Below, in pieces: positions 3,841-32,571 of a stretch of DNA of 64,000 bases (position 1 is the stretch's first letter; the number at the start of each line of letters is the position of its first letter). The stretch spans positions 2,790,001 to 2,854,000 of the forward strand of contig JAMWFC010000046.1 in NCBI GenBank assembly GCA_027475525.1, written 5' to 3'. This stretch comes from Macrolepiota albuminosa (lineage: Eukaryota; Basidiomycota; Agaricomycetes; Agaricales; Agaricaceae). Both the position numbers and the translations under genes were made by a program. A model generated the notes under the pieces. The model worked only from the letters and a program-made list of their open reading frames with translations. It did not search any database and was not told the origin of the DNA.

Positions 3841-4659
3841 TGATGACGCCAACTGTGGTTGAGTGCGCTGGACGTATACGCAGTACAACGCCATCTCCAG
3901 CGCTTGGCATGCGTAGTTGTGAGGAGTCCTGACAGGGTCCCGGTGTGCTCAAGTAGAGGTGGTAAAATGATGCACTAGATTATAGCGCTTCGGGGGCTAC
4001 CTGGCAGACGGTAAGCATTGTAGTTTAGACAAAGATATTAAAGAAAAGATGAGTAGCGCAGCGTATTGTGCCCGTAGGTGGCACTGTAAACAATGAAGAC
4101 GAGATAGACGAGGCTAGTGCCCGACTTAGTGATGAAGTCAAAGGAAGCTAGTGCGATTTGAACGCTAAGTGTAACTGTGTGTGTGCAAGGGGTTACAATT
4201 CGTTGTTATATACATGTAAAGTAGCTATTTTATATACTATGCGCTACTGTGTTTGCCAAGATACAAGTCCATCTGCGGCGCTACCTCCTAGCGCCTCTCC
4301 TCATGGTTTCCTCTAACGGTGACCTGTCAACGGCGACCTTTTGCACATGAATGACGGCGACCAACGGCGTTCTGACCCACGGCGACCAGCAGCGACTCTC
4401 CAAATGGCCAGGCTGTTTTGGTGTATGGTCAGAAAATCCTTGACAGACGCTGTGAGCACTAATGTCAGCGCTACACATTGTACTAGTTCCTGACAGGTCC
4501 AGATGTCGGATTTAAGTATATCCAGTGCTGCCATCATTGATCCTTTTAGACTTCTGATTGAAGTGCCTCGTCAAATGGCAGCGCCTGCTGCTGGCTCCTT
4601 TTGGAAGTGATCAGGGTTTAGTTAGAGTTCTCTCCCGCCATCGTGTTAGCACTATACGT
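3841..4659 (-). repeat. LTR-B of element B1, outer part (interrupted)
   Basis: On the plus strand it starts TGATGACGCCAACTG and matches 17098-18166 and 32593-33808. It is cut at 4659 by element A1 and resumes after the duplicated ACGT at 13424, ending at 13713 in CCTATCA. In sense orientation (minus) it is the 5' LTR of B1. A TATATAAAATAG-type TATA box is visible on the minus strand near 4220-4235. Confidence 0.85.
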
Positions 4660-5615
4660 TGATGACGCCCAAAGTTTGGTCAGTAACAAATGTAACAAAA
4701 GTGTTACCGTACCAAGAGTGTGCGTTGGGCGCGCTAAAAGTGATGAGAGGAGTCCCGGGCAGGTCCCAGAGAACGCGTCTGTGAAAAAGAGGAAAAAGTC
4801 GGTAACGGGGTCGGCAAGTGTAAAGCGCTAAGGTAAAGCGCCTAGGAAAGAGCGGTAAGCGAACACGGCAAAGGTAAGCGGCAAGAGCACGGTAAGCTTA
4901 GCGAAGTCTAAGCGTCGATAATGCCTGCCGTAGTTGCAAGGCGCGAGTGTGTCGAGTGTTGGCGAGCGTCTGTAACTACCGATGAGTTCGACGTTGCCGA
5001 CCGTAGCGTAAATGAGCTCTTGAGCGTAAGGGAGACTGAGGAAAGGGGAGTAAACTGTGGTCTATTCGTCTGATCTGATGATGTCTATGTACAAATCGGT
5101 AAGTACTTTTATACTACAATGAGTTCGCCGTCGCCAGTGGCTAATGACGCCAGAGTGCGGTAAACTAGAAAATTTCAAAGGGGTAGCTCCAACGGTTTCA
5201 GATCCCTACCGTCCATTCAAGAGCCTTAGCGACGCCAGGCGACAGATCGCGAAGCTAAACCATCACTCCATCACCCTTCTGTCTGTCAGAACACCTAAGC
5301 GACGTTGGGCGCCAAATCGAGACGGTAAGCGGTGTCAGACGCCAAGGTCAAACGCCAAGCTGTCCGTCAGTTTTTGATAGATCATCAGGCTTCTCGCTAA
5401 GCGCTGTCGTCAGTGACTGATGCCATCTGTCAGTTGTCATTCTTGCTGCCGTCGGCGCTATCATTGATTGGATCTGCTTCTTGCCGTGCGCGGCCGTCAG
5501 AAATGGCTTAAAATGGGTAGAACGCGTGCGCTAAGTTCGGAACGAGTGCGGCAAGGTTTCCGGAGCCGGTGCCGAGCCTGCCGTTGATGCGCCTAACCTG
5601 TATGGGGTCCTATCA
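4660..5615 (-). repeat. 3' LTR of A1 (LTR-A)
   Basis: 956 bp. On the plus strand it starts TGATGACGCCCAAAG and ends TGGGGTCCTATCA, so in sense orientation it runs TGATAGG...CATCA. It belongs to an LTR-A subgroup shared with the solo LTR at 37155-38117. The other LTR-A copies (for example 26046-26983) differ in the roughly 100 bp next to the TGATAGG end. Confidence 0.92.
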
Positions 5616-5634
5616 TCTCCCCCCAACTGAAAAA
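5616..5634 (-). promoter_or_regulatory. Polypurine tract beside the A1 3' LTR
   Basis: On the minus strand, AGTTGGGGGGAGA directly abuts the TGATAGG start of the 3' LTR, as expected for the plus-strand DNA primer of a gypsy element. The same tract occurs beside the B2 LTR (18167 onward) and before the A2 3' LTR (58980-58992). It fixes the minus strand as the sense strand of A1 even though the nearest gene lies on the plus strand. Confidence 0.8.
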
Positions 5635-5717
5635 TTGACTGTCCTCAGTCACCAAATAAGGCTACCGTTACCGTTTTTGTGACAAGTGGCCCGTGCGTTC
5701 TTGAGATTTGGTTTATA

Positions 5718-5871
5718 GTCCTGGCGCATGAGTTTGGACTTCGTCTCTCCTCCACATCTTTACCTGGCGCTCTATTAAAAAAATATGTCTTTCCGTCCTG
5801 GCGCATGAGTTTGGACTTCGTCTCTCCTCCACATCTTTACCTGGCGCTCTATTAAAAAAATATGTCTTTCC
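5718..5871. repeat. 77-bp exact direct duplication over the start of the antisense gene
   Basis: 5718-5794 repeats as 5795-5871 with a period of 77 bp, including a second copy of the start codon region. It is one of at least 23 duplications in the window with the same period and is probably an unmerged k-mer overlap. The start at 5862 is the one in frame with exon 1. Confidence 0.9.
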
Positions 5872-8296
5872 GAATTCCAACTCCGCCCCCCGTCCCATCT
5901 CGCGAGGCTCAAGACGCTGCCTCTTCCTACATCGCCAAGGCCAACAACTTTATCAAGCGCATCGAGGGTGTGGGCGCGGAGGCGCCTTCAAACTTGGTGA
6001 TCGCGGTAATGAAGTTGTTGGAGCGCTGGTACGAAGTTCGTGTCCTTGGCGTAGGCTGGGACAAGGAGATCGAAGTGCGGGAGTGGTGCCGAGCGCGGTA
6101 CGTGGATAATCTGGGGTCTGAGTGGCTGGGTCCCTTCTCTCGCTTTGTAAGTTTTTATGATTGCTTGCCACGTCGCTAGCTAACTGATTCCCTAGGCGCC
6201 TCCTCCCGTTCCAACCATTGAGGACGAACTGGAGGACATCCTCTCTGGCGCCTTGCCAATGACGGTAAGCGCGCCAGCGCCTGAGTGAGTATCTCTAACT
6301 GTACTTTCTAACTTAGCTGTGGTCTGATCTATCTCCTCACAGCAAGCAAGAGGTGTTGGCGCCTCTCGCCAACCTGCAGGTCGATGCAGAGATGGCGGCA
6401 ATTCGCGAGAGTGTGCTGGAAGAGGCCTCCCGTGACGCCAAGGAGAGGACCAAGGCGTTGGAGGAGCGAGAGGTCGTTGGCGAGTCCCTGGTTGCTAGCG
6501 AGAAGTCGCCAGTTGCCAGGAGGCAGATGTCTGATGTGAAGGATTCCCGCGCCGGTAGTGCCCAGAGCCCAGCACTGCCGGCAAGCAAATCGGGCTCTCC
6601 AGTCAAGCCTGGCAAGACTTTGAAAAAGAAGGTAAGTTTGAGGGTTCTTACCGCTGGCGACTTCTGCTTATCCCACTCTCAGTCTCGTAAGGCTGCCGCC
6701 CCTCGTTACACGGTAAGTTCGTTGCGCCAAGGTACTTTCCTTGCTAACCAACCATTTGACAGGCGCCAACGCAAACTTCCTTTAGCGACGCAGAGCTGAA
6801 GGGTTTGTTGGTGGCACGACGAGATGAGGCGGTTTTGGATGGAGGAATGGAGGCGGGGGTGGTCTTGCCAGAGATGAAGGACAAGAAGACGGCAAGTCCG
6901 GCGGCAAGACGGGAGTTCAAGGACTCCCAAGGAGCGGTAAGCACTTTGGCTTTCCTTGCCGCTTTCGTTAACATTCTTGTAGTGCGACAAGTGCTGGGCC
7001 GACAACGACCCAGAGGGGTGTTGGTACCCCACTGGTGGCCAGCCCTGCTACCGGTGCGGTACGCTTAAACAGGCCTGCACTCTGGACGGCGCTAAGAGTC
7101 GAGAACGCGGTGGAGCTCCCGACGCGGTAGTGGAGCGCACTTTCAAGCGTGCCGTCCTCGTCAAAAGGGCGCGGGAGTTCGTTGAGGGGGAGAGGAAGAA
7201 GCAGGCCGCTGGCGACGCGGCGACGATTAGCAAGAGTTCCCTGGCGCTGCCGACGCGTCAAGGGGACGAGTCTGCAACAGTCGGCAACCATGGCGCCGGA
7301 GAGCGCCAAGGGACTACGGTCCCTTCAAAACGACAAGTCTCTTCGCCCGCCAAGGGGAAGGGCAAGGCCAAACGTGCGCGGGTAGAGTCTCCTCCCTCTG
7401 CCCCTGAAGACGTGGAGATGGAGGAGCTGGAGAAGGCGCTTGCCGCCAGTCGCCTACCGCCAAGGGACACTGAAGCCGGGCCCAGCAAGTTGCTCTCCCC
7501 AATCCACTTGAGAGGGGCTTCTCTGCCAACCGCCGACGAAGACGACGCGGTAATGGACCCGCTGCCAAGGGAAGAGCCTCAGGAGGTGGAACCCTCGGCA
7601 ATGGCAGCAAGGGGAGCGGGAAGCCCTATGGCTATGGCTGGTGACGAGGACGTGGAGGGGGAGCCAGACGAGACCTTGGCGACCCAGCGCGAAGGTGACG
7701 AGGAAGAGGCCCCCGCCAAGGAAGCGGTAGCGGGAGAGGGTGAGGGAGAGGCATCGGCAAGGGAGGTAGTGGCAGAAGTCGAGGGCGCGGCAGGAGTTGC
7801 CAGGGAGGAGCCAGAGTGGCACTGGCTACCTCCCTACGGTAACGTTGCCCCCTGGGAAGTCTCAGACCCTGAGGACGTTGCCGGATTGGAGCCAAGGCGC
7901 CCCGTGATCGCCAGGGTCGATCCCACTTGGACTCCCCAGCCACAGCCAACGGTTACTGGCGACGCTTTCCAGTGGCTGGGGCAAGACCTCGTTTACCCGG
8001 TCATTGCGCTAAATCCTCGCGAGATGCTGGAGCGGTATTCGAGGAGGGCGGCAACGATGGCAACGTCGATGGAACGGGAACGGGAACGGGTGCGGGGACA
8101 GCTCATGGCGCTTCGCTTGCGCTACTCCAACTTGGGGCGCAGCCTGCGCGTTCTGCGAGATTACCAGGACGACTGCCAAGCCGCCATGGATTGGCAAACC
8201 GCCAACAACATCTTGCCGGGCGACCTTTTACCGCTTCGCGACTCCTCTTTGCCGATTTCCGACGACTCTTTGCCGCTGGAAGATGAGAGCGACTGA
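5862..8296 (+). CDS. Antisense spliced gene of A1: Zn2Cys6-cluster-like protein (copy 1)
   Basis: Predicted product about 726 aa from six exons: 5862-6146, 6196-6284, 6343-6631, 6683-6712, 6763-6936 and 6983-8296. The introns are 46-58 bp and all GT-AG. Exon 2 could also end at 6264, but the A2 copy keeps only the 6284-type donor. The protein has a helical N-terminal domain (residues about 15-95, with RWYEVRVLG and a WD near its end), a Lys/Glu-rich middle, and a six-cysteine cluster C290-x2-C-x8-C-x8-C-x2-C-x6-C321 that opens the last exon. A Lys/Arg-rich stretch, a long acidic linker, and a C-terminal helical region rich in Arg/Glu/Leu follow. Fungal Zn2Cys6 regulators normally have x6 in the second gap, so this is a variant; nuclear DNA binding is an inference. 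It lies between pol and the 3' LTR, convergent with pol. Confidence 0.78.
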
Positions 8297-8723
8297 GCGG
8301 ACCTTAGCGTAGAGTGGCCGCTTATGTATATAATTTTCTTTGCTGTCGTGATATATATCTGTTTTTGCCGCCTCCTTGCAGAGTGGACGGGTAAGCCTAG
8401 TAGTCTGAGTTAGCGCAACCGCAAAGAGCGAAGCAAGTAAAGTTAAGAGAAAGTAAGCGGCAAGCCTTGTAAGGTAGGTTTTAGTAAGAGGAGTAGTAGG
8501 TGAGGGACTTAGTCAAATTTTGAGGAAAAGGGAAACGCTCAGTAGATCATCATAGCGAAAAACCCTTGGCGAGAGTTGCGCAAGGCGCTAAGCGTTAGCA
8601 ACACGCTAGCGCTGCGGCTTGACTATGTAAGAAATTGTCTGTTGAATATAGTATAGTAAGTATCGGCAAGAAAGATAAGTACAGTAAGTAATAGAAAATG
8701 AAAGCTTATCAGTATAGTCTTTT
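8297..8723. other. Convergent spacer between antisense gene and pol, with a conserved block
   Basis: This 427-bp non-coding stretch lies between the stop of the antisense gene and the stop of pol. It holds a block (about 8526-8575: GGGAAACGCTCAGTA, then ATCATCAT) that recurs at 23160-23205 in B2 and, inverted, at 56237-56283 in A2. It probably contains the two convergent 3' ends. I see no ORF. Confidence 0.6.
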
Positions 8724-11700
8724 CTAATTGTTTTCTTCTTCTTCCACTAAAGTCGGCAAGTCATCATCGTCCAATAGTTCGGTTTCTTCAAGTTCTCTCA
8801 GCTTGGCGGTGTCGATATCTAGCGCTTCAAGCGGCAAGTCGATTTGTTCTCTAGCGAGGTATGGCAATAGGCGAAAAGCGGCAACAGGTCGATGCAGTAC
8901 TGAACCATCTAATTCACAGAGCACGTAAGCGCCTCCACGGTTACGGGAGATAACTACCAAAGGTCCAAGATAGCGCGGGCGCATTTTCTTGTTGTAAGAG
9001 GTTTCGATTTTGGAGTTGCGCATAAGCACTAGCGCTCCTCTCGGGAAGTTGTAATCTTTGATAGTGGCGCTATGCTCGGACTCGAATCGTAATGCTGCTT
9101 GGCGACGTGCGCTAAAGACTACCTCGTGGAGTCGCTCTAAATCTTCCCTCCTTTGTTGGAGGTCAATGGCTCGTCTGGCGATCAGGTCGGTAGTCGCTAA
9201 GATGCTGTTGGGTGCTGGCTGAAGATAGGTCGCTTCTATAATGTCAGCAGGGAGTAACGGATGGGTGCCAGTAGCCGCGTAATAGGGAGAGCAACCCATG
9301 CGCTTACGAATAGTAACTCTTTCCGACCAGAACACTGAATAAGTCGCTTCGCTCCAACGAGACTCGTCGCCATCGACTGCCTTGAAGAGTGCTTGCCGAA
9401 CGTCAAAGTGTGGTCTTTCTACCAGGCCATTGGCGCGTTTGTTGTAGCCAGATACTCGAATGTGGTGAATGTTGTATTTCTTGGCGAGGTAAGTTAGCGC
9501 TTTGATAATGGGCGCACCGTTATCCGTGACGATTTCTCTTAGCGCTCCCCACCGGCAGATGACGTCTTCAAATAGCCACTTGGCGACCGCGTCGGTATTT
9601 TCTCTTTGAAGCATGCGAAACTCAGGCCAGTGGATTAGCGAGCAACGACCTTGGATGATGTACTTATAGCGACCAGATTTGGGCATGTGCATGGTATCGA
9701 CGTAGATTTTGCTGAAGAGGGGAGCTGGCGTCACAACGGTTGGCGGTATGAGCACTTGGCGTGTTTGTTGGATTTGGCAGAGGTGGCAAGTCCTGATGTA
9801 CCAGGCGATGTCGGCACTAGCGTGTGGCCACCAGAATCGTTCTAGCAGAGAAGCTCGGGTAGCGTACAGACCTCTATGACCTAGCTCGTCATGCATAGCG
9901 CGCAAGACCCGTAAGCGACCTTCTGGCTTGATGATCAACTTGTGAGCGCCATCTCGATTTCGTCGCCAAAGTCTGTTGTCGGTAAAGAAAAAATGGGTAG
10001 CATATCGGATAAAAGTAGCGTATTGTTCGTCGGTAAGGTCGGCGGGTCGCTTAAGGTCTTGTAGCCATTGTCCAACGAGTAACAAGCGACTGTCTTCCGC
10101 CTTTGCCTTGGTGGATCGGGAGACGACCTCGTAGGTAAGGTTTTTGCTGTCCTCTCTTAGCGGATGGGGTTCTTGTACGATTTTTACTGGTGGCGAGTCC
10201 TGACTGCAAATGCTTGCCGTGTAGAATGTGAGGGGTGCGCTAAAGGTCTCGGGGCGGTAAGGGATAATGGGATGTAGAAATATGCTGGTAGGCTGTTGCC
10301 GGCGTAGTAGGGGGATGGGCTGTTGTATGAGGTGTACGAATCCATGTAAGCGGTCGATCCAGTCCTCGAAATCGCTATCAGCCTGTGGGTCCACTGCCGG
10401 GTCGCCAGGCTGCCGTGGTCGCCTAGAAAGTCCATCTGGTCCGTGGAAAGAGCTCTTGACGTGTACCAACTCAAAGTGAAACATGAGGATAGCGACTACC
10501 CACCGGTTCATGCTAGCGGATGGCTGGATATCAGGATTCTGCAGCATGCCTTTGATGTACCTAGCGTCGACCTCAACAATCAGGTTCCGCACGCCAATTA
10601 AATACATCTTTAGCGCTCGGAAAGCCTTGAAGAGTCCATAGAGCTCTAGCTTAGGCTGGCTGTAGCGAGATTCCCGGTCGTTTAGCGTGATCGACCCAAA
10701 GCGGTTGTAGCGTCGCTGTTTCCGATTGTCGCTAAGGCATTGGCACAAGAAGTAGCCAACGGCAATGTACGAGGTGTCCACCGCCAAGATAACAGGGTCG
10801 GCAGAGGTATAATCGATGGGGACTAGGGGCTTGGCGTCCTGCAGAGCTTTTACTAAGTCGCGTTGGGCAGTGACCTGGTCTGGCCCAAATTCGAAGGGCT
10901 CGTTAGCGCGGGTGAGTCGGTTAAGAGCATGTGCGCGATGGGCAAAGTTTTTGACGAAGATCCTGAGAACGCCAACGGTGCCAAGAAAGGCGCGAACTTC
11001 AGATAAGTCGCGGCAAGGACCCCAGCGCTCTAGGAGTGCTAAGCGAGACTCGTCGGGAACGCGACCGTCGGGAGTGCAGATGTGACCAAGTATTTTGAAC
11101 CTTGGCGCGCAAAGGAGGAGTTTGTGACCGCTAAAGGTACCACCGCTATACTTCATACGTTGGAGAACTCGATTGAGCAGCTGGAAAAAATCCCATAGCG
11201 CTAAGCAAATGTTGGAGTTGTCGGGATGGGTTGCCGGTAAGCCGTTTACGAGTCGCCAGTCTTTGGGGCCTTTGACGCCAACGTCATCAATGAAGCTAAG
11301 GACATTATGCGGTATCTCGGGTTGGAGGATGAATGTGATGTCGTCATGGAATATGGGGACTGAGTTTGTCCAGCCCATCGGCAAGGTAACTAGGCGCAAG
11401 GCGCCAAACGGAGTTTGAAAGGTGGTGAGGTCACGGGAAGAAGGGTGTATCAAGCGTTCATCGTAGCCAACGTAGAGGTCAAGGGTGGCGCCACAAATGC
11501 GCCCGGCAAAGGACTCGGCAAAGTGGTCAGGGAAAGGCGGTACGCCAGAGTGTCGTATGGTTACTCTATTCAGCGGCTCAAGACTGTGAACTATGCGTAG
11601 ATTGCCGTTCTTTTTGAGGACGCAGAACCAACGGGAGCGGTAAGAACTATTGGAGGGCTCGTAGACGCCAGCCTGTATCTTGGTCCTAATGATTTGGCAG

Positions 11701-12550
11701 ACCTCGGCTTCGATCCCAGGCGGTAGCGGTCGGTTGTGCTCAGTCCACGGCACGTGAGGGATAGTCGGGATGACGACAGGCGGGAAGAAATCTGTACGTA
11801 GACTGCCGCGTTCGGAGTCCTCCCAAGCAAAGGCTTTGTCTTGCTTAGCGACAAGATCGGTAAGGACGTTTAACTCATCTTTGGTCAAAAATCCTGTGTC
11901 GTGCTCCTTGGCGAACTGCTGCTGGCGCTCCGTGGTAAAACGTCCTGTGGGCTGAAAGGGTGGCGGATTTGGTGATAAGGTCGGTATGTCGGCAAGAGGG
12001 TCGCCAATAATCTGGCGCTCGATCCTAAACGTCTCGGGAGAGTGCGTAGCGACCGGTTTTGTCTTAAGCGCAACTGGCTTATATTTCTTTTTAACTCGAT
12101 CCTAAACGTCTCGGGAGAGTGCGTAGCGACCGGTTTTGTCTTAAGCGCAACTGGCTTATATTTCTTTTTAACTTGTACCCCTTTCCTTTTGGGAGCGTTA
12201 GCTTGGTTATACACAGAGGTGGAAAGGGGAATCGTAGCCTGAGGGGCGGCAAGTCCAAGAACGGCAGGAGATGAGGCTCCGGGAAGAGTAGTGAGATAGG
12301 TGTCGGTAGACGCAATATTCTGAAATGACTCGGAAGCGGTAAGATATAAGTAGGCAAGAGAGGAGTCGGTAATATTTTGATTTTTCTGGGAAGGCTCTGC
12401 GTCGGTAGTGGGTAATGTAGTTAAAATATCTTCGTCAAGAAAAGCAGTAGACAAAACAGTTACAAGACCAGTTGAATGGTCAAATTCCAGCGTTAGCGCC
12501 ACATCTCCGTGATCGTCGCCAATCACCTCCTCGATGGTCTGTGAAAACAC
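8724..12550 (-). CDS. A1 pol: reverse transcriptase, RNase H, integrase
   Basis: Gypsy pol of about 1249 aa once the 77-bp duplication at 12018-12171 is counted once; as assembled that duplication splits it into 12550-11885 and 11888-8724. The RT has an FIDD catalytic box near 11290 and a preceding LPMGWTNSV block. The RNase H has the acidic residues AVDTS (about 10785), KLELYGLF and VEVDARYI. The integrase has a zinc finger with H-x4-H and C-x2-C (about 9895-9770) and the D, D, E residues at VDTMHM, TDNGAP and ERPH (about 9700, 9520, 9420). No chromodomain is present; the C-terminus is acidic. The frame has no ATG near its start and overlaps the protease stop by 28 nt, so it is probably translated by a -1 frameshift. 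Confidence 0.92.
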
Positions 12551-13249
12551 CGGTGGGGAGGCTCGTTGGCGTGTTGGTCGGTAAACTCCGGGGGCTTAGC
12601 GCGGGCGCCTTTTCGTTGTCCCCTAGGGAACGTTGGCACCGTTCGTCGGATTCCGGAATTTGGGTCGCTAATTGTGAGGGTCGTTTCCTCGTCGGTAACT
12701 GTCTTGACGACTGATCGCGCCAAGACGTCGAAGGGTCTGCCGAGTAATAAGTCGTAAGCCGGTGAACGTAAGATGTGTATCTGAAGATAAAAAGTGATGT
12801 CGCCAAGGGTGCACGGCACATTCTTGGCGAGGCCTAGGGATCTGTCCACTGTACCGTTAGCGCTCTGCATGTTTAGTATAATGGTAGGGTCGTAAATAAG
12901 GCCTAGATCGTTAGCGACTTCCGCTGCCATAGAAATGATCTGAGACCCGCTATCCACTATAGCCTCTACTTCGTGCTTGTTGTCTACCGTTAGCGCTACC
13001 AAGCGGATAGCGTGCGATTCTTGAGCGACGGTAAGGATTGCTGGATCTTCTCCATGGTCTACCGACCTAAGGTAGGTCTCCACTGGGTCCACAGAGGTGG
13101 CGTTAGCGATAGGATCGGCAGGAGAATCTTCAGCGTCCAGCGAGTCGACGGTAACAGAAAAACCAGGAAGCACGTCGTCGAGTTCATCAACCTCGGCAAC
13201 GGCTGTCGCCAAGGGTCGTCGGGGAGTGACTGCCGTCTTGACCTGGTTG
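12523..13249 (-). CDS. A1 gag-protease, 3' part
   Basis: Open minus-strand frame running from the N gap to a stop at 12523. Gag's last residues (QVKTAVTP) continue directly into the protease, so gag and protease form one frame. The retropepsin active site IVDSGSQIISMAA lies near 12950, followed by NMQSANGTVDRSLG and a LLLGRPFDV flap/core block. The N-terminal and central gag, including the zinc knuckle, is hidden in the gap. The A2 copy carries a TGA in place of one of the Arg codons at this junction; here it is intact. Confidence 0.88.
12543..12549 (-). promoter_or_regulatory. Candidate -1 frameshift site between protease and pol
   Basis: TGTTTTC lies inside the 28-nt overlap of the protease and pol frames. 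Slipping back one base on the four T's re-pairs TTT with TTT and enters the pol frame 20 nt before the protease stop. The same heptamer in the same context is at 38927-38933 (A2) and, on the minus strand, 29865-29871 (B2). I have not modelled a downstream pseudoknot. Confidence 0.45.
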
Positions 13250-13349
13250 NNNNNNNNNNNNNNNNNNNNNNNNNNNNNNNNNNNNNNNNNNNNNNNNNNN
13301 NNNNNNNNNNNNNNNNNNNNNNNNNNNNNNNNNNNNNNNNNNNNNNNNN
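13250..13349. other. Scaffold gap of 100 N inside A1
   Basis: The gap replaces most of A1 gag, the primer-binding site and most of the 5' LTR. In related copies this region is about 2.5-3 kb, so the real gap is far longer than 100 bp. Confidence 0.97.
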
Positions 13350-13423
13350 ACGAGTGCGGCAAGGTTTCCGGAGCCGGTGCCGAGCCTGCCGTTGATGCGC
13401 CTAACCTGTATGGGGTCCTATCA
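13350..13423 (-). repeat. A1 5' LTR, visible outer 74 bp
   Basis: Identical to 5542-5615 and ending CCTATCA, followed by the target duplication ACGT and then the resumed LTR-B. Confidence 0.9.
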
Positions 13424-13713
13424 ACGTTATGAGCCTCCTTTGTTCTTGGGATAGGTGAATGGAGTGTGCTGAAGGCTTGGTAGCTAGTGGTTAGGATAAA
13501 TGTCTAAATCCTGTAGTCGGTTGCCAGAGCTAGGGCTGCTCTATATTCCCAACTGGTCGCTAGAGTCCTCGGATAAATGTCTAAATCCTGTAGTCGGTTG
13601 CCAGAGCTAGGGCTGCTCTATATTCCCAACTGGTCGCTAGAGTCCTCAGTACATCAAGTGTTGGTTGGCCTATAATGTCCCTTGATGCGCTCAGTCTGAG
13701 TAGAAGCCTATCA
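13424..13713 (-). repeat. LTR-B of B1, resumed
   Basis: Continuation of 3841-4659 after the A1 insertion, ending CCTATCA at 13713. It contains a 77-bp direct duplication (13494-13570 repeated from 13571). The flank beyond is element F, so B1 inserted into F. Confidence 0.85.
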
Positions 13714-15820
13714 ACAGCTTACCTACCCTCCCACTCTTTGCACTCTCTCCTCCTTAAAACCCGCCTCACCCCCTCTGGAACCCCCCTCAACACCCTCATC
13801 AATAGTGGCGCCACAGACAACTTTATCAACGAGGCATGGTCTACCTTTGCCCCAGAACCTGCTCAGTGACTCCCGGTCCTAGTGTGACTCTGCCTCTTCA
13901 ACGGAGATGCCTCTACAGTGGGGGACATCATTCACTTTGTGCATATGCCCGTTACTTTTGCCAACAGACAGACTCACACCCTCCAGATGTTGATAACCAA
14001 ACTCCACCCCTCCGCACCCCTGGTCTTAGGGCTTCCATGGCTCTGAGACACCAACCTCCACATTGACTGGCAACATCTCACCCTTTGTCTGACCCAGGAA
14101 CCGATGCCCGACGACTAGCAACTCCCCTTCAACATTCCCCACTCTCTGGGCCCAACCCCGAAGAACCCCCTGGATGGGCCCCCACCGCCCCCCGGACTCC
14201 AGTCCTGCTCATTCCAATCCTTTGTCATTAATGCCAGGTTAGACAGCACCCTGGGACCAATATTGGCCCTCATTGACAGCAGAGCTACCGGAGTTTTCAT
14301 CAGCGATGTCCTTGACCTTCCCCACGACTCCCTCGACCAACCCCTCTGCCTGCAATGCCTCAACGGCACCTCCTCCTCCTCCAGCCTCATCCAGAGGTCT
14401 CACTCGGGATGTGTGACCCTGGACAATGACTACAAGTTCACCTCCAACTTCCTGGTCATGTGACTTCATGAATCGACCCCGATGGTGCTGGGACTACCCT
14501 GGCTATGTGACACAAACCCTGACATCAATTGGAGGACGCTCACCATGACCTTCCTGGGACTCAAAGACCACCCCTCAACTGCTGTGCACCTCTGGGCCCT
14601 AGGGAGGGACCTGATGCCTGACACCTCTGGGGCGGCAGCCACGCCCCCCACCCATATGCCACCAACACCCGTCCAAACTCACAAGGCTCCCAATCAACCC
14701 CCAAACATTCCTCGGAACAGGTACAAAGGGCTAAACTACTCAGGCTAGTCTCAGACACACGTCAAACCCACTCCAGCCTGTGAATCCATGGCCCCAATTG
14801 ACCCAAATGCACTCGACATTAGGATCATTGGAGCTGCCCTCTTTGTCCGCCTTATGAAGGACAGAACCCCCACATTTCAGCTACACACCTTGCCATCTCT
14901 CCCAGAAGAGCATCTATGAGAGGACGCTATCTCCCCAGAGAAGAAAACCAAGGAGAAGATCCTCTGAGAAGTAGTTTCTCTAGAGTATCATGAGTTCGCT
15001 GACGTATTCTCTGAAGGAGACGCTAAGGAGATCCCCCCTCACCGCCTCTATGACCATATGATCAACCTCAAGGAAGGAGCCGCCCCCCCTTTTGGCAAGG
15101 TATACAACATGTCGGAAGTCAAACTCCAGGCTCTCAAAGACTACCTCGATGAAATGCTCAGGAAGAGATTCATCCGACCCTCCACTTCTGCCGCCAGAGC
15201 CCCAGTTTTATTTGCCAAAAAGAAGGATGGTTTGCTCTGACTCTGCATCGACTACCAGGGACTCCATAAGATCACCAAGAAGAACCGCTACTCGCTTCCG
15301 CTCATTGGTGACCTAGTCGATCGACTCCGCAGTGCCAAGGTTTACACAAAAATTGACCTCCGCTCCGGCTACAACAACGTCCACATCACTCCAGGACATG
15401 AGTGGAAAACCACATTTCACACATGGTATGGTCTGTTTGAATACCTTGTAATGCTTTTTGGAATGACTAACTCCCCCGCCACATTCCAATACTTCATGAA
15501 CAACATCTTCCATGACATGAGCAATGTCTTCATAATCGTTTACCTGGACGACATCCTCATCTACTCCAACTCGAGGGAGGACCACCAGAAGCATGTCCGG
15601 CAAGTGTTTGAATGTCTCCGGGAGCACAACCTCCACGCCAAACCTGAGAAGTGTTCATTCCACATGGAAGAGGTTGAGTATTTCAGTGTTATCGTATCCC
15701 TGAATGGCATTCGCATGGACCCCCACAAGGTCAAGGCCATCGTCAACTGGCCGCAACCCCAGAACGTCAAGGAAGTACAATTCTTCCTGGGTTTTGCTAA
15801 CTTTTACCAAAGGTTCATAG
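13714..15820 (+). pseudogene. Element F: degraded gypsy pol, two protease-like domains plus RT
   Basis: Plus-strand gypsy pol remnant with several stops and frameshifts. There are two retropepsin-like modules in tandem. The first, about 13780-14085, has LINSGATDNFI and a VLGLPWL block. The second, about 14262-14560, has LIDSRATGVFI and again VLGLPWL. Both active sites depart from D-S/T-G. The RT follows: a leader with [20 protein letters not shown] (about 15200-15235), KIDLRSGYNN, FGMTNSPATFQ and an intact YLDDILIYS at about 15541-15567. It ends at FYQRFID, where LTR-E is inserted at 15825; the RNase H and integrase continue at 59941. No full-length product is possible. Confidence 0.82.
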
Positions 15821-15824
15821 ACAA

Positions 15825-16821
15825 TGATACGATGCTGTACCAGCAGTCAGGGATACACCATGCACCAGAAGTCAAAATAAACATTTAATCATGGGCTGAA
15901 AACTGTAAGCCTCCTGGTAGCAGTCTCAACAAATAACCATCTCCAAAAACATCCCAACAAATACACAGAAAAGTACAGAACAACAGGCAGGAACCAGTTC
16001 AAACTATCAGCTCAACAATAGTCTAACACTACTGTCATGGAGAGGAAAAGCATGGAAGCTGGCAATGGACAGAATAGAATGAAATTGGGAAATTATTATT
16101 GTCATTCAATATTATAATTTTTCAATTTCATTATCAAATCAGTCAATGTTTGATTTGACATAATTGGAAGGAGGAAAGCAAAGAAGTAGGCGATGCAGGG
16201 AGGTGCTAAAAGAGGAAAGAAGGATCCATGAATGGGATTGTGCTAAATGGAGCTCAAGCAAATGAGGAAGTGGCAATCCAAAACATCCGGAAGAATGGCA
16301 GAACGAGAAGTTGAATGGTGGAATGGGTGGCACTGAAACAGGCCTCTCAAAAGGGAAATTGGACTATCAAATACGTTCTGAAAGTGGGAGAGTTTCCAAC
16401 AAAGAGTCATATGTAGATAGTGGTCTGTGCACCAGAAAAACAGTATAAATAGCCCAAGTTTAGTAGAGAATAGACAGGCAATTGATAGGCAAAGGCTCGG
16501 TGATTCCCAGGGAGTGAATTGCTTAGGCCAGAGTTTGTTAAGAAACCTCAACTTGTGGGAATATTATTATTGCTCGGTGATTCCCAGGGAGTGAATTGCT
16601 TAGGCCAGAGTTTGTTAAGAAACCTCAACTTGTGGGAATATTATTATTTTCATTCAATATTATAATTCCTCAAAACCTCGGCGTTTTGCAAAATTATTAA
16701 ACGCATTCAAGATAATAATTATCCCTTTTGTCATCAAGGTCAGTGGGAATTCAAGGTCATATTCTACACTAGCAAGCCCCAGAACTATCAAGTAATACTT
16801 CTACCAAGTCCTACATCATAC
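15825..16821 (+). repeat. Solo LTR-E inside element F (left part)
   Basis: Starts TGATACGATGCTGTACC and resembles 63406-64000. It ends TACTACA at 59933-59936, because element A2 is nested near its 3' end. The duplication ACAA at 15821-15824 and 59937-59940 marks the insertion. It contains a 77-bp direct duplication at 16495-16648. AT-rich, no ORF. Confidence 0.75.
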
Positions 16822-17097: not shown

Positions 17098-18166
17098 TGA
17101 TGACGCCAACTGTAGTTGGGTGCGCTGGACGTATACGCAGTACAACGCCGTCTCCAGCGCTTGGTGTATGTAGTTGTGAGGAGTCCTGACAGGGTCCTGG
17201 TGTGCTCAAGTGGAGGTGGTAAAACGATGCGCTAGATTATAGCGCTTCGGGGTACCTGGCAGACGGTAAGCATTGTAGTTTGGGCAAAGATATTGGAGAA
17301 AAGATGAATAGCGCAGCGTATTGTGCCCGTAGGTGGCACCGTAAACGATGAAGACGAGATAGACAAAGCTAGCGCCCAACTTAGTGACAAAGTCGAAGGA
17401 AGCTAGCGCGAGTTGAACGCTAAGTGTAACTGTCTGTTCGAGGGGTTACAATTCGTTGTTATATACATGTAAAGTAGCTATTTTATATACTATGCGCTAC
17501 CGTGTTTGTCCAGATACAAGTCCACCTGCGGCGCTACCTCCTAGCGCCTCTCCTCATGGTTTCCTCTAACGGCGACCTGTCAACGGCAACCTTTTGCACA
17601 TGGATGACGGCGACCAACGGCGTTCTGACCCACGGCAACCAGCGGCGACTCTATATTGGCTTAGAATTGCATGAGTCTGCTCACTTTTATTCTAACTCCA
17701 ATTGGCCAGGCTGTTTCGGGGTATGGTCAGAAAATCCTCGACAGATGCTGTGAGCGCTAGTGTCAGCGCTACTCATTGTATTAGTTCCTGACAGGTCCAG
17801 ATGTCGGATTTAAGTATATCCAGTGCCGCCGTCATTGATCCTTTTAGACTTCTGATTGAAGTGCCTCGTCAAATGGCAGCGCCTGTTGCTGACTCTTTCT
17901 GGAAGTGATCGGGGTTTAGTTAGAGTCCTCTCCCACCGTCGTGTTAGCGCTATACGTTATGGGCCTCCTTCGTCCTTAGGATAGGTGAATGGAGTGTGCT
18001 AAAAGCTGGGTAGCTAGTAGTTAGGATAAATGTCTAGATCCTGTAGTCAGTTGCCAGAGCTAGAGCTGCTCTATATTCCCAACTGGTCGCTAGAGCCTTT
18101 AGTACGTCAAGTGTTGGTTGGCCTATAATGTCCCTTGATGCGCTCAGTCCGAGTAGAAGCCTATCA
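17098..18166 (-). repeat. B2 3' LTR (LTR-B)
   Basis: 1069 bp, TGATGACGCCAACTG...GAAGCCTATCA on the plus strand. Beyond it, 18167 onward reads as the polypurine tract on the minus strand, sharing its sequence with A1. A TATATAAAATAG box lies on the minus strand near 17480-17491. The two ends resemble LTR-A while the middle is different. Confidence 0.9.
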
Positions 18167-20279
18167 TCTCTCCCCAACTGAAAAATTGACTGTCCTCAGT
18201 CAAACGCCGTCATTAATTTGACTGCGCTACGGTCCATATGATGCCGCCGGCGCCTTATAAAAATCGTTTTTAGCCCTTCACCTTCTCGTGTTTTCCTTCC
18301 CATCTTTCCAACATGTCCACTCCTTTCGATGCCTCTGCTCTTCGCAATTTCCTGGCTAAGGCCTCCTATCTATTTGATCGCGCTAAGTCTGTTGGTCCCG
18401 CTGATGCGCCACAAACCGTCCCTGGCATTATGCAACTTTATAGGCGCTGGCTCGTGGTCCGCAGTTCTGACAGTTCCTGGGCGCGGGGCGTCAAGGTTCG
18501 TGAATGGTGCATGGCTCGGTACCGTGAATATGAGGGTGCCGATTGGTTACTACTCTTTGCGGACTTGTTTGTAAGTTTTTAGGTTTGATTTTTGGGTTTG
18601 TGGCGCTAAGGTTCAGCGCTCATACTAGGCTTCTTCTTTATCCGACGAGATTGACGCCCTGTTGGCTAGTACCGAGGTTGGCGAAGTGAGTTCCCTCCTC
18701 TTCTTCCTCATATTTTCCATGTTAACCCTGAGTAGTCGGTTGCTACGTCACCCACTGTCGCCAGTCTTCCTAGTGCCCTGTCGGCTTCTACCGCTCCTTC
18801 TGCTCCGGCCGCTCCTCCTGTTGCTCCTGTCTCTGTTCTTCCTCCTCCCGTTCTTGGTAGTCCTTTTTGTGGCGATGTTTCTCCCGCTTGTACTGCACCC
18901 ATCGTCGCTTCTCCCACTCGTACTGCACCTCCTCATTTGGCCATCAAGCGGATTGCCGTTACTGCCAGTGAACCCCGGCCCGGACCTACTCGTACTATTT
19001 CTCGCCTTCCCCCCCGTAACTTCGCCGTGGTTATTGATCGCGTGCCCCCTGCTCTCGCTAGCCCTCCTAAACGTACCGTGTGTCCTTGTCTTCTTGCCTC
19101 TAGCTCTTCTACTAACTTTGCTTCTCAGGTCAATCTCCCTGCTTGCGTCGCCCCTTTATATGTCGTAAGTGTTTCCTTTTAAGATCGCTTATTTCTAGCG
19201 CCTGATCGAGCCCTCCTTAGGCGCCCAACCAAACTATGTTTACTGACGTGGAGCTTCGTGATTTGCTGCGCCTTCGTCGCGATACTACCATCATTGATAC
19301 CGGCCTCCCGGCTGGTGTCCAAGTACTCAGCGCTAAGAAGAAGGTTACAGTGGCACCCGTGGAGCGCCGCGCTTTTAGGGCGAAGATGCTGGTGTCCAAG
19401 TACTCAGCGCTAAGAAGAAGGTTACAGTGGCACCCGTGGAGCGCCGCGCTTTTAGGGCGAAGATTGGTGCGGTAAGTGCTTGTTCGTCCCTGAAAGGTTG
19501 ATAACGTCGCTAACTTCTTTCCCAGTGCGATAAATGCTGGTCTGAAAACGATCCCGAGGGTTGCTGGTTTCCTACCGCCTCTCTTCCCTGCTACCGCTGC
19601 GATGCGTTGAAACGGGGCTGTGCCTTCAATGGGATTCGTACTCGCGAACGTGGTAGGGACGCTATCATGCAACGCAATTACGAGTGAAACGGGGCTGTGC
19701 CTTCAATGGGATTCGTACTCGCGAACGTGGTAGGGACACTATCATGCAATGCAATTACGAGCGCGCCGTCCTAGTTCGTAACGCCCGTGCCTTTGTGCTG
19801 CAGCAACGCGATCTGGCCGCTACTCGCCAGCCCACTGTGATTAGCGCTGCAAGCCTAGCGCTTCCCACCACCCAAGATGGTACCACCGTTGCGGCGCTAC
19901 TCGCCAGCCCACTGTGATTAGCGCTGCAAGCCTAGCGCTTCCCACCACCCAAGATGGTACCACCGTTGCGGCCCCCTTCGCCCGCTCTCCCTGTTGTCCC
20001 GTCCCCTTGAAACGTAAGCCTATTGTCGCCTCTCCTAGCAAGAGTCCTGGTAAGCGCCGGGAGCTAGCGCCTGCTACTCCCGTGATCTTGTCTTCTACCG
20101 AGTCCTCTACTGATGAAGGCGAGGATACCGAGAGAGATGCTGAGGGCAAGGATGACGATGAGGCGGGGCCTGTAGTCGACACCAATGCGCTATTGGCGGT
20201 ACGCACTCTTCTGCTTCGCATTACTCCCTCTATCGCCGCTAATCCTTATCAGAGTGGCCCCAGTGGTAATCGGTGCGTT

Positions 20280-21292
20280 GATGACGCCCAAAGTTTGGTC
20301 AGAAACAAATGTATCAATAGTGTTACCGTACCAAGAGTTTGCGTTGGGCGCGCTTTAAGTGATGTGAGGAGTCCCGGGCAGGTCCCAGAGAACGCGTCTT
20401 TACCGTACCAAGAGTTTGCGTTGGGCGCGCTTTAAGTGATGTGAGGAGTCCCGGGCAGGTCCCAGAGAACGCGTCTGTGAAAAAAGGGGAAAAGTCAGCA
20501 AGGGAAGTCGGCAAGTGTAAAGCGCTAGGGTAAAGCGCCTATAAAAGAGCGGTAAGTGAACACGGCAATGTGAGCGGCAAGAGCACGGTATGCTTAGCGA
20601 AGTCTAAGCGTCGATAATGCCTGCCGTAGTTGCAAGGCACGAGTGTGTCGAGTGTTGGCGAGCGTCTGTAACTGCCGATGAGTTCGACGTTGCCGACCGT
20701 AAATGAGCTCTTGAGCATAGGGGAGACTGAAGAAAGGGGAGTGGTAAACTCTGGTCTGTTATTCGATGGTGTATGTACAAGTCGGTAAGTACTTTATATA
20801 CTACAAGGAGTTCACCGTCGCCAGTGACCAACCATTGCCAAAGTGCGGTAAACTGGAAAATTTCATAGGGGAAGCTCCAACGGTTTCAGATCCCTACCGT
20901 CCATTCAAGAGCCTTAGCAACGCCAGACGACAGATTGCGAAGCTAAACCATCACTCCATCACCCTTCTGTCTGTCAGAGCACCTAAGCGATGTCAGGCGC
21001 CAGATCGAGGCACTAAGCGGTGTCAGACGCCAAGGTCAAACGCCAAGCTGTCCGTCAGTTTTTGATAGATCATCAGGCTTCTCGCTAAGCACTGTCGTCA
21101 GTGACTGATGCCATCTGTCAGTTGTCATTATGTCTGCCGTTGGCGCTATCATTGATTGGATCTGCTTCTTGCCATGTGTGGCCGTCAAATATTGCCAAAA
21201 TTAGTTAGTTAGCGCGCGCTAAGATATCCTGAGCCCGTGCTACGTTGCCGCAGCCTGCCGTTGATGCGCTGATCCTGTATGGGGTCCTATCA
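20280..21292 (-). repeat. Solo LTR-A in the B2 antisense gene
   Basis: TGATGACGCCC...GTCCTATCA with target duplication GCGT (20276-20279 and 21293-21296). It includes a 77-bp duplication (20323-20399 repeated). No internal region accompanies it, so it is a recombination product. Confidence 0.92.
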
Positions 21293-22054
21293 GCGTAGTG
21301 TTCGTGTTTTCCTGTTTAGGTTGCGCTAACCTCTTTGTCGCCAGGTCCCCTACTCCTTTGCTTCCGGTCATCGTGGATATCCCTCCCGCCGAAGATGTCG
21401 TGATGTCTGTTGCTGGCGCTACCCCTGCTCCTGAGCCTGTCGTGGCTAGCGCCTCCCCCATTGCCCTTCCTATTACACCATCTCTTACCCCTCCTTGTAG
21501 CCTCTCTTCTTTCCCCAGTACTCGCGAGTCCTCTACCGCGCCTGAGTCCGAAGGGACCTTAGTAGCTCAGGGCGAGCGCCGCCGCCGCTGGAGGTATTTG
21601 CCTTCCTATGGCATCTGCCTTTCTTCCGCTAGGGCCATGTCCCCAGGCGATGAGCGCCATGAATGGACCCCCCGTGCTCCCGTAACCGTTTGAGTAAGTC
21701 TGCATTTCCTAGTTAGTTCGCCTTTCCGCTGACCTCCGCTAAGTTTGATCCTTTTTGGACTCCTCCCCCCGCCATGCGCGTTTCCGGCGACGCCTATCCT
21801 TGGCTTGGGGATGAGTTCTCTTATCCTGTCACTCCCCTTCGTCCTGCCACCGATCTCCATCAACAACTCCGCCAGGTCGAGGACGTGACCGACGTCATTG
21901 GTAGTGAACTCGCCCTTCTCCGTCCTTGTGTCTCCACCTTAGCGCGCCGTGAGCTCCTCCTGCTTGAGCTCCATGACAACATCACTGATGCGCTTGAGTG
22001 GCAAGCGAGTAACGCCATTCAAGACAGGGACTTGCTTCCATTGGGTGATCCCGC

Positions 22055-22990
22055 TGATGACGCCCAAAGTTTGGTCAGTAACAAATGTAACAATAGTGTT
22101 ACCGTACCAAGAGTTTGCGTTGGGCGTGCTATAAGTGATGAGAGGAGTCCCGGGCAGGTCCCAGAGAACGTGTCTGTAAAAATAGGGTAAAGTCGGTAAT
22201 GGCGTCGGCAAGTGTAAAGCGCTAAGGTAAAGCGCCTATGAAGAAGTGGTAAGTGAACACGGCAACGGTAAGCGGCAAGAGCACGGTATGCTTAGCGAAG
22301 TCTAAGCGTCGATAATGCCTGCCATAGCTGCAAGGCGCGAATATGTCGAGTGTTGGCGAGCGTCTGTAACTGCCAATGAGTTTGACGTTGCCGACCGTAA
22401 ATGAGCTCTTGAGCGTAAGGGAGACTGAAGAAAGGGGAGTGGTAAACTCTGGTCTATTGTTCTCTCTTTATGTACAAGTCAGTAAGTACTATATATACTA
22501 CAAGGAGTTCACCGTCGCCAGTGACCAACCATCGCCAAAGTGCGGTAAACTGGAAAATTTTATAGGGGTAGCTCCAACGGTTTCAGATCCCTACCGTCCA
22601 TTCAAGAGCCTTAGCGACGCCAGGCGACAGATCGTGAAGCTAAACCATCAATCCATCACCCTTCTGTCTGTCAAAAAGGCTTAGCGGTGTCAGGCGCCAG
22701 ATCGAGACGCTAAGCGATGTCAGACGCCAAGGTCAAACGCCAAGCTGTCCGTCAGTTTTTTGATAGGTCATCAGGCTTCTCGCTAAGCGCTGTTGTCAGT
22801 GACTGATGCCATCTGTCAGTTGTCATTCTATCTGCCGTTGGCGCTATCACTGATTGGATCTGCTTCTTGCCGTGCACGGCTGTCAAATATTGCCAAAAAT
22901 AGTTAGTTAGCGCGCGCTAAGGTATCCCGGGTCAGTGCCGCTTTGCCGTTGCCTGCCGTTGATGCGCTGATCCTGTATGGGGTCCTATCA
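22055..22990 (-). repeat. Solo LTR-A near the end of the B2 antisense gene
   Basis: 936 bp, with target duplication CCGC (22051-22054) and CCAC (22991-22994). The difference is a CG-to-CA transition. Removing it joins the C-terminal codons to a stop at 23014. Confidence 0.9.
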
Positions 22991-23016
22991 CCACTCCTTC
23001 TGTGTCTGATGCGTAG

Positions 23017-23542
23017 TCGCCGGCCCGTAGCGCTTCGAACTTTTGTGGACTCTGAAAATTTTGATACATAGTTTGTGATAGCCATACTAAAATAAACGCT
23101 CCCCTCCCCTTGTTTCGAAATCGTCAGTTTGTAAGTAATCAAAATACAAAGTAAGAAAAAGGGGAAACGCTCAGTAAATCATCATGGCGTAAAAACCCCT
23201 ATTACCAGCGCGACCCAATAGCCAATATCGTGCCAGCCTAGGAAGAAATAGGTATCGTCTGTAGAAAAATAAGTCGATTCATGCAAGAAGTTTTAATGTA
23301 TAAGAAATAGAGTGCCACTGATTGCTTGTGGTTATTTGGTGATGGTGGCTATAAGCGCTAGATCTCAAAGGTTAATTCCCTCTTTGTGCGACCTAAAATG
23401 GATTCCAGCGCATCCTATTGGTTCGTGTCTGCGTCAGGGTCCAAGCCCCTTGAGAAGTGCCCTCCCACGCTGTTGCTAGTTGAAACACCGTCCGAGTCCT
23501 ATAAATTGCCCATGCCTCGACAGCATCTCATCAGTCTTTGCG
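23017..23542. other. Spacer between antisense genes of B2
   Basis: Non-coding. It holds the conserved GGGAAACGCTCAGTA...ATCATCAT block at about 23161-23190, also found 3' of the antisense genes of A1 and A2. The upstream region of the next gene follows. Confidence 0.55.
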
Positions 23543-24054
23543 ATGGAAAGCCCAACCGGCATCGTGTGGACTCCCCGTTGTGATCATGCTCATATCGTAA
23601 TTGATCCCCCCACTTTCCTGGAACGCGCTACCTCATTCTTCCACCACTACCCAACGGTCGGCGTGCCCGGACTGACCAACGGAGTCGTTGAATTAGGTCG
23701 TCGCTGCCAGCTACTTTGTGTGGCCTGTGAGATTTGGCACAATGACCTGCTGTTGACCCGTTTTGGTATGGAGAAAAACTGGAGTCAGATTTTTCAGGTG
23801 CGCTATTGCCTTTTTTGCCCTCCTTCTCTTCTGATAGTTTCCAAATCAAGCAAATCGTGACCAAGGAAACGAAAGAACGTCTTGAGCTGCTGCTGGAGGA
23901 GAGTCACTACCTGGTTTGTCATTTTATTACCTCTTTTCTTCCTTCTAACGCGTCGCTTCGCTAGGCGCCTCGCTCGTCTACCAGTGGCCGGCTTTTTTGT
24001 GGTCCTGCTGAAGGCTGGAGGCCTCCCAGGCCTCTCCTTTTGCCCGGGCCTTGA
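23543..24054 (+). CDS. Second antisense gene of B2: short relative of the N-terminal domain
   Basis: A plausible three-exon model is 23543-23797, 23851-23913 and 23965-24054, giving about 135 aa in phase throughout; the exon 2 acceptor (AAG) is the weakest call. Exon 1 has the layout of the antisense-gene N-terminal domain: a helix starting FLERATSFF, a Gly/Pro turn, then a helix with ELGRRCQLL and a conserved Trp (EIW). No cysteine cluster is visible. It may be a short paralogue or a truncated copy. It lies on the plus strand between the large antisense gene and pol of a minus-strand element. Confidence 0.45.
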
Positions 24055-24293
24055 TGCTCGTCCGTCTCCCATGTTGTTTATGTAAGTCGGCTCCTTCTTT
24101 TCCGTGGCGCCACTGGGCTGACAGATTTTGGCTAGTTGATTTCTTTTTGTCGTAGTTATATGAAATGCATCGCTGTCTCCCCCCCCCTCATGATTGTTTT
24201 GCGCGCGTAAGAGTTCCCAAGTATCCGCGACCCTGCAAGCAGCTTGAGGTATTTTATGGGTTCTGGCGCTGTTAACCCGGTTAGTATCATATC

Positions 24294-24590
24294 ATGCCAG
24301 AACCTTCCCTCCTTCTTGATGACCCCGTACTCGTTCACCGGCCCCTCATCCTAGATCGCCTCGAGCGCTTTCTTGCGTTAATGCCTGACGGCGGCTTTCC
24401 ACAGGAGAACAGTAACATATTGACCCTTGTGCGCCGGTACCGGATCCTGCTAGCGGCCTCCGCCGAATGGGAGATAGATACAGACCTGGCTCTAGTCACC
24501 GTAAACCCTTTATTACCGCCCGCTTTTAGGTTAATGCTTATGCGTGTCGTAGGAGCAGACCATTACTGGTACCGCTTTGAGTCTTCATAG
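24294..24590 (+). CDS. Third antisense gene of B2: short relative, exon 1
   Basis: 98-codon ORF with the same pattern as the previous gene: ILDRLERFLALMPDGG, then NILTLVRRYRILL and a Trp in SAEWEID. Other family members have a splice donor (GTAAGT) after a terminal Phe; here the matching site reads GAGTCT and translation stops after three codons, so the donor may be lost. A downstream ORF at 24731-25018 may have been its later exon. Function unknown. Confidence 0.4.
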   Translation: MPEPSLLLDDPVLVHRPLILDRLERFLALMPDGGFPQENSNILTLVRRYRILLAASAEWEIDTDLALVTVNPLLPPAFRLMLMRVVGADHYWYRFESS

Positions 24591-24730
24591 TCTTCTCCGC
24601 GAGACCGGGGGTTTGGTTAGTGCCTATACCCCTTTTTCGCCTGGCTTCGGTTAGCTAACTCCCTGCCTTTTTCTAGAGCCTTTCCTGGCTCCCCCTTCTG
24701 GTTCTTGTTAACCTTAACGCTAGTAGAGCC

Positions 24731-32513: not shown

Positions 32514-32571
32514 CAGGAGGCGGCGCTGTCGCTGGGCTCGAGTTTCCGGCGGAATTCTGTCTCAGAAGAAC

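Follow-up and report, generated by a model that had tools for sequence, protein, structure and literature searches.

A spliced antisense gene in a Ty3-type retrotransposon of Macrolepiota albuminosa and a six-base word dense throughout the element

What does a gene with five introns do on the antisense strand of a retrotransposon, and does it belong to the element at all? The question is raised by a stretch of 64,000 nt from Macrolepiota albuminosa (contig JAMWFC010000046.1, positions 2790001-2854000; hereafter the window), in which a plus-strand gene lies between pol and the 3' long terminal repeat (LTR) of a minus-strand element of the Ty3 type, designated family A. A first, sequence-only reading had proposed a Zn2Cys6-like gene with five GT-AG introns at 5862-8296, carried antisense in a young and complete gypsy element. 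We searched the genome (100 Mb, 129 contigs) for further copies. Sequence comparisons confirm, in our view, that the gene is real, spliced and part of the element. Our preferred reading, to which we give a little less than an even chance, is that it encodes a nuclear DNA-binding protein that would recognise its own element and control its chromatin or transcription.

The gene runs from an ATG at 5862 to a stop at 8296 in six exons and encodes 726 amino acids (aa). Exon 1 (5862-6146) specifies a helical N-terminal part and is followed by exons 2 (6196-6284), 3 (6343-6631), 4 (6683-6712) and 5 (6763-6936); exon 6 (6983-8296) begins with a cysteine cluster and continues through an acidic linker and a C-terminal coiled coil to the stop. 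The introns (6147-6195, 6285-6342, 6632-6682, 6713-6762 and 6937-6982) measure 49, 58, 51, 50 and 46 nt. This model was picked from 24 splice combinations with an open frame, since it yields a joined CDKC in the cysteine cluster and agrees with the phase shifts seen at the variable sites. Over the window and 34 fetched genomic copies, the donor GT is present at 173 of 175 sites (the losses being intron 2 of copy L029 and intron 1 of L039) and the acceptor AG at all 175; the frame is unbroken in 29 of the 35 and broken in L029, L033, L038, L039, L040 and L041. Variable sites favour third codon positions with a three-base period, the phase of which shifts across the introns. Insertions and deletions (indels) of 1 nt are confined to introns and to sequence outside the gene, save for a single 1-nt exon deletion in one copy, and all other exon indels have lengths divisible by three, provided that the neighbouring +13 (or +19) and -4 found in four copies are counted as one event. 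The gene and its five introns as first read from the window therefore hold good, and the recurrence of the introns across genomic copies agrees with the earlier proposal that an antisense gene keeps them through retrotransposition; they would survive because the genomic RNA, being of the opposite strand, does not have them spliced out.

Eighteen representatives of the 29 intact copies (153 pairs) gave a median ratio of non-synonymous to synonymous divergence (dN/dS) of 0.116, with a range of 0.08-0.26. Within exon 6 the ratio was 0.13 in the reading frame, as compared with 1.4-2.4 in four other frames and 0.25 in the minus frame that shares its third positions. The cysteine cluster had the lowest value of all segments (0.027), the other six lying between 0.05 and 0.20 with the acidic part highest (0.20). 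Across 16 copies, pol showed a dN of 0.014 and a dS of 0.236, versus 0.034 and 0.321 for the gene, and the pol frame contained a stop in 4 of these 16. Judged by these substitution patterns, the gene is under purifying selection in many copies. A chance open frame was rejected on the phase pattern of the variable sites together with dN/dS, and a hidden sense gene at the locus on the absence of any minus-strand frame longer than 123 aa within 5862-8296. The same constraint bears on the idea that the antisense transcript acts rather than the protein, pairing with the genomic RNA and feeding or blocking RNA silencing: the two transcripts would overlap, and such pairing is proposed for plant antisense open reading frames (ORFs) in the accessible part of PMC7264820, but strong protein-level constraint and kept splice sites would be needless for a non-coding role, and we regard this explanation as very improbable.

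That the gene might be a unique host gene bracketed by two independent LTR insertions had been named from the outset as the finding that would overturn the proposal, and it did not hold. Besides the window, the genome contains at least 39 further places with the gene, of which 34 were fetched; those left out were C110:2814153 and C114:3437591/3439301, which are partial, and three with the same score as C92:2393319. In 20 of the 20 loci of 10 kb fetched for their copy of the gene, LTR, gene and pol stand in the same register. Starting instead from pol, for which 10 of 39 places outside the window were testable, the leader that precedes the gene was found 2.8-3.8 kb off at 10 of 10, where 0.01 would be expected per place. 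The constant register and the further places exclude a unique host gene, and a target duplication encloses the whole; with a dN/dS of 0.12 besides, there is next to no chance that a trapped host gene or a chance open frame accounts for the locus.

The carrier itself has the parts of a Ty3/gypsy element in the expected arrangement. Read from low to high coordinates, a 3' LTR of approximately 955 bp (4661-5615; TGATAGG...GCGTCATC on the element strand), delimited by comparison with other LTR copies and with the flanks, is followed by a polypurine tract directly inside it (5616-5627; CAGTTGGGGGGA on the minus strand), the antisense gene, pol (8724-12101), an aspartyl protease region (12526-13249), a gap of Ns (13250-13349) and the readable 74 bases of the 5' LTR (13350-13423), all on the minus strand except the gene. 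The pol region comprises reverse transcriptase (RT), ribonuclease H (RNase H), an H2C2 zinc-binding domain and integrase in the order RT-RNase H-integrase; it matches the RT/RNase H of Ty3 Gag-Pol (E 1.7e-18) and a foamy-virus integrase, and a chromodomain was absent among its Pfam matches up to E 1. A perfect 5-bp target site duplication, ACGTT, stands at both ends (4656-4660 and 13424-13428), as the earlier reading had it. The element sits in the LTR of another related element: its joined flanks align at 92% with an uninterrupted LTR elsewhere in the window (17098-18166), the single gap being one element base carried into the join. Two LTRs and a target site duplication are therefore present, the 5' LTR being judged on its 74 readable bases. 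To call the element complete was too generous, since the gap at 13250-13349 takes in most of the 5' LTR, the primer binding site and, to judge from element C of the window, gag as well; element C carries a gag-like sequence upstream of pol. Its youth was likewise not confirmed, the 5' LTR being identical to the 3' LTR over those 74 bases alone.

The protein has a cluster C-x2-C-x8-C-x8-C-x2-C-x6-C in 35 of 35 copies, and the core CDKCWADNDPEGCWYP...PCYRC..LKRAC is common to a second family (B), a third gene (D) and the relatives from Termitomyces. Fungal Zn2Cys6 regulators (PF00172) have the spacing C-x2-C-x6-C-x5..12-C-x2-C-x6..8-C. Like them, the protein has two C-x2-C halves with six cysteines in all, together with basic stretches, an acidic region and a coiled coil; it differs in the first half, which is C-x2-C-x8-C in all 35 copies, and in the position of the cluster in the middle of the protein. 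The variant x8 spacing had been noted correctly at the start. The label Zn2Cys6-like was an overstatement, as the profile search then suggested against Zn_clus gave no match up to E 10, nor did any other Pfam family, and membership of PF00172 was rejected. Protein searches, the first two of which were limited to scoring the 7996 and 7995 candidates with the most words in common, found 107 relatives, all labelled Termitomyces (five strains) and often present in dozens per strain; a profile (A2) was built from 69 of the 107. This distribution suggests a mobile family in the Lyophyllaceae. Among the viral contigs searched there was no relative. The AlphaFold model of one Termitomyces relative (P0001, with 68 other rows) had a mean predicted local distance difference test score (pLDDT) of 57 and a predicted template modelling score (pTM) of 0.33, with confident N-terminal helices at approximately 4-104 and a likewise confident C-terminal coiled coil at 542-604, besides long disordered stretches. 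Foldseek against the PDB returned nothing at E 0.001 (best E 1.9), and the best hit of a profile search of solved structures (E 0.055) lay in a low-complexity stretch.

The word CGSYAA (reverse complement TTRSCG) occurs 142 times, on both strands, in the 8.6 kb at 4661-13249, where 19.2 sites would be expected (z 28), with 87 in plus and 55 in minus orientation. It ranks first of 138,240 patterns with two twofold-degenerate positions, and no other hexamer of the element is as over-represented as its four variants. The excess is found in the LTR (23 observed, 2.1 expected), the gene (39 and 5.2), pol (51 and 8.0) and the protease region (21 and 2.1), each with a z of 13.7-15.2 when taken separately. 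The sites are dispersed rather than tandem, include pol and the gene exons, and have flanks that carry little information. Synonymous-codon shuffling does not explain the excess: pol has 51 sites against 9.7 in shuffled sequences (largest of 500, 18) and the gene 34 against 6.5 (largest of 500, 14). The LTR has the highest density, 24 per kb, as would suit a self-repressor like HBZ of the human T-cell leukaemia viruses (HTLV), binding the LTR to lower transcription and limit copy number, with the pol sites secondary or acting as roadblocks; the spliced antisense genes of HTLV-1 to 4 mostly encode nuclear proteins that lower LTR transcription, according to the available text of PMC10186651. A repressor of a single promoter would not need the 15-20 sites per kb seen in pol and the gene, however, and we think this explanation distinctly unlikely.

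Could the excess have another cause, such as sites for a host protein, a signal for nucleosomes or replication, or biased mutation or conversion in these elements, with the protein doing something else, for example helping Gag, targeting integration or exporting RNA? We consider this unlikely, though the link between protein and motif is not direct. An unrelated element at 14119-16500 (plus strand, with a gypsy-like RT by eye) is without the excess (3 sites against 1.6 expected, 1.3 per kb), and positions 1-1900 have 1 against 1.3 (0.5 per kb). Conservation is also in point. The element alignment comprised the window and 15 of the 20 fetched 10-kb loci, the aligner leaving inserted bases out; L009, L016, L019, L020 and L021 were excluded because insertions, gaps or numerous small changes had broken them up. 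Each of these 16 copies has 109-129 sites. At the pol sites the core positions C, G, S, A and A differ between copies at 0.017, against 0.058 at phase-matched positions (0 of 5000 as low), whereas Y is free to vary (0.047 against 0.057).

A further argument against another cause is that families A and B differ in their motif. Family B, the element at 17098-33815, has its own antisense gene (18313-22055, plus strand), which is interrupted by A-type LTR sequence and by 77-bp duplications and favours GCGCTA. It is enriched in GCGCTA (52 against 7.6 expected) and in KCGCYA (102 against 24.1) and depleted in CGGCA (12 against 23.8). Among the window elements and the fetched copies, the motif is abundant in its own family and scarce in others. 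Identity to A is 62-72% in three gene classes (L043, L044 and L045) and the D gene of the window (56508-58822, minus strand; 62%, with intron-like GT-AG stretches, by eye, in the five corresponding places). In the aligned part, L043 has 41 CGSYAA sites, L044 38, L045 30 and D 21, as compared with 39 in A, and shares with A the positions of 8, 15, 9 and 6 of them, respectively; the density is therefore roughly kept, being lowest in D, while the positions move. The cysteine cluster of B is further from that of A than those of L043-L045 and D are. Such joint divergence of word and cluster is the pattern expected if the element's own protein reads the word, two motif groups being too few for proof.

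The preferred reading, a nuclear protein that recognises its own element, can be spelled out as follows. The antisense gene would be transcribed from its leader or from the 3' LTR; the protein would enter the nucleus and dimerise via its C-terminal coiled coil; its six-cysteine core would bind CGSYAA, so that the whole element would be marked by the density of sites; and the bound protein would act on the chromatin or transcription of the element. A counter to host silencing, as with the VANC proteins, seems somewhat likelier than self-repression of the HBZ kind. The earlier suggestion that the gene regulates the LTR or host silencing is plausible, and the element-wide motif makes a DNA-binding role more likely. 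Several observations weigh against this reading. At the exon 6 sites the core shows no conservation (0.105 against 0.091, p 0.77), and in the LTR its conservation is marginal (p 0.05); both results would favour another cause for the motif excess. Where a window site is altered in another copy, the motif is retained in 91 cases and lost in 221. The region 59100-64000 also has a moderate excess of CGSYAA (17 against 4.2), and two short open frames, from elements B and C, gave no CGSYAA signal under synonymous shuffling. GCGCTA is enriched in A too, if less strongly, so the A-like and B motif groups overlap. The cysteine part of the P0001 model has low confidence, and the protein has neither a Pfam nor a solved-structure match. 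What connects the motif with the protein is circumstantial evidence, from a comparison of only two motif groups, A-like and B.

A wider version of the preferred reading is possible but doubtful: a self-recognition system in which a new type of six-cysteine DNA-binding protein would sense how densely a degenerate 6-bp word occurs and thereby cover its own element, including the coding regions, with word and protein diverging together (CGSYAA against GCGCTA/KCGCYA) and other parts of the gene shuffled and diversified on a near-constant pol, as in an arms race with host silencing. Turnover of this kind is suggested by L044 (C92:898000-901000), the gene of which is 72% identical to A while the adjoining pol (C92:900988-902564) is 93% identical. 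The first 96 residues of its protein are 95% identical to A and residues 126-726 62%; distances between copies in gene and pol correlate weakly (0.29-0.45). We infer, with caution because the assembly is stitched from short pieces, that gene segments have been exchanged between lineages.

How the gene would be expressed is suggested by the leader between LTR and ATG, which is approximately 170 nt long, a 77-bp duplication extending it to 247 nt in the window. It contains the polypurine tract, a palindrome TGACTG-TCCT-CAGTCA, a CArG-like box, a TATA-like box and a CT-rich stretch, and its bases 5620-5659 are invariant in the 16 aligned copies. The leader motif CAACTGAAAAATTGACTGTCCTCAGTCA (5624-5651, plus strand) includes the palindrome at 5636-5651 and, when up to 3 mismatches are allowed, has 778 matches genome-wide, as compared with 0 for the reversed control; the window has 3, and 100 shuffles of it 0. 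It is directly followed by the CArG-like box CCAAATAAGG (5652-5661, plus strand), a putative regulatory site to which the genome count of the palindrome with CC(A/T)6GG within 8 nt points (363 matches; reversed control, 0). TTTATA at 5712-5717 (plus strand), followed by the CT-rich stretch and seen in the aligned copies, is a candidate core promoter; family B carries CTTATAAAAA in its place. On contigs with a full leader list, the leader stands upstream at 23 of 23 gene places (window included), and we infer that it is the promoter of the antisense gene. Its first part, palindrome included, may serve plus-strand priming, and the palindrome was also considered as a candidate site for the antisense protein itself. 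In the window the leader occurs at 5624-5661, 18175-18202 and 58957-58984 (the last being that of the D gene), with a perfect 6-4-6 palindrome; the CArG-like box follows it in the A-type and D leaders and is missing from the B leader.

Antisense genes in LTR elements are already known from plants and, as brtn, from Botrytis, as far as the accessible parts of the sources go. The gypsy ORFs of plants (Grande gene23, RIRE2 and Retand TRP28) are similarly extra antisense genes between pol and the 3' LTR in most copies; in Grande there is an own promoter, and the products are nuclear or predicted to bind DNA (available text of PMC7264820 and PMC11963269). Their function is described as undetermined in the part of PMC7264820 at hand. 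The fungal gene shares their place in most copies (20 of 20 starting from the gene, 10 of 10 from pol) but belongs to a different kingdom, has five introns and matches neither TRP28 (PF04195) nor another Pfam family; no element-wide motif is described for the plant ORFs in the accessible text of those two papers. The Boty-like elements of Botrytis cinerea, to judge by title and mentions, also carry an antisense gene, brtn, in a fungal LTR element; the excerpt available of PMC4227169 reports a CHROMO domain in Boty gag-pol, unlike the pol described here. Homology searches with the antisense protein returned Termitomyces alone; the comparison with brtn is by description. Of the earlier remark that no described fungal element could be matched, one part stands, as neither this gene family nor an element-wide motif of a fungal LTR element turned up in a literature search that left subscription papers largely outside, nor did any paper on LTR retrotransposons or gypsy elements of Termitomyces; the other does not, an antisense gene of a fungal element being in print as brtn.

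Two more distant systems are instructive. HBZ and its APH counterparts of HTLV-1 to 4 are likewise spliced antisense genes adjoining the 3' LTR, and the hbz promoter holds a MEF-2 site according to the accessible part of PMC10186651. That site may be likened to the CArG-like box of the fungal leader. Binders of MEF-2 and CArG sites are both MADS-box proteins. HBZ/APH and the fungal protein have no common sequence family, as judged by Pfam; the fungal protein has a cysteine cluster, and its ATG lies approximately 170 nt inside the element, not in the LTR. VANC of the Arabidopsis VANDAL elements is an element-encoded protein paired with a short motif that its own family carries at high density and that changes in another family, and it shows that such a pair can act on an element's chromatin or transcription (available text of PMC5735166). 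VANDALs, however, are DNA transposons, and their motifs lie mainly in non-coding tandem repeats (same text), whereas the CGSYAA sites are dispersed in coding and non-coding DNA. Binding and loss of methylation were shown for VANC (PMC5735166, as available); the fungal system is known here from sequence alone.

It should be noted that the small-scale structure of the window is affected by the assembly. All 20 exact tandem duplications with periods of 40-199 nt have a period of 77, starting at 5718, 12018, 13494, 16495, 19311, 19818, 20323, 30205, 32948, 33638, 34243, 41724, 43340, 44925, 53617, 55402, 55681, 55786, 56693 and 61943; in eight fetched loci tested, tandem duplications likewise had period 77, two loci having none. 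They are very likely artefacts, unmerged k-mer overlaps of a short-read assembly that create fake frameshifts and repeats. One lies over the ATG (5718-5871, with 5718-5794 equal to 5795-5871) and another over the junction of protease and pol (12018-12171), so the small-scale structure at these places is not to be trusted; in 15 aligned copies the 77 bases before and over the ATG occur in one version. Within the family B element lie A-type LTRs at 20276-21292, 22052-22990, 26046-26986 and 33807-34549. Element C (34948-42000) is A-type in plus orientation and has a solo A-type LTR in its gag-pol region (37155-38119; flanks ACCGC/ACCGA). The region 43500-55300 has an excess of GCGCTA (20 against 4.0) with CGSYAA near background, and contains minus-strand frames labelled by eye as RT-like (49274-50539) and gag-like (52549-53316). 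Minus-strand frames at 1133-1931, cut by a gap of Ns at 1932-2031, resemble by eye what we take to be an NAD-dependent epimerase.

The antisense gene described here brings a testable prediction, namely a specific DNA word that is dense in its own element and different in a sister family. If the protein does bind this word, it would be a case of sequence-specific self-recognition by an LTR retrotransposon, and would open a way to ask how such elements endure in a repeat-rich fungal genome of 100 Mb. It would also be a case of a protein-coding element that gives up synonymous positions in favour of binding sites along much of its length.

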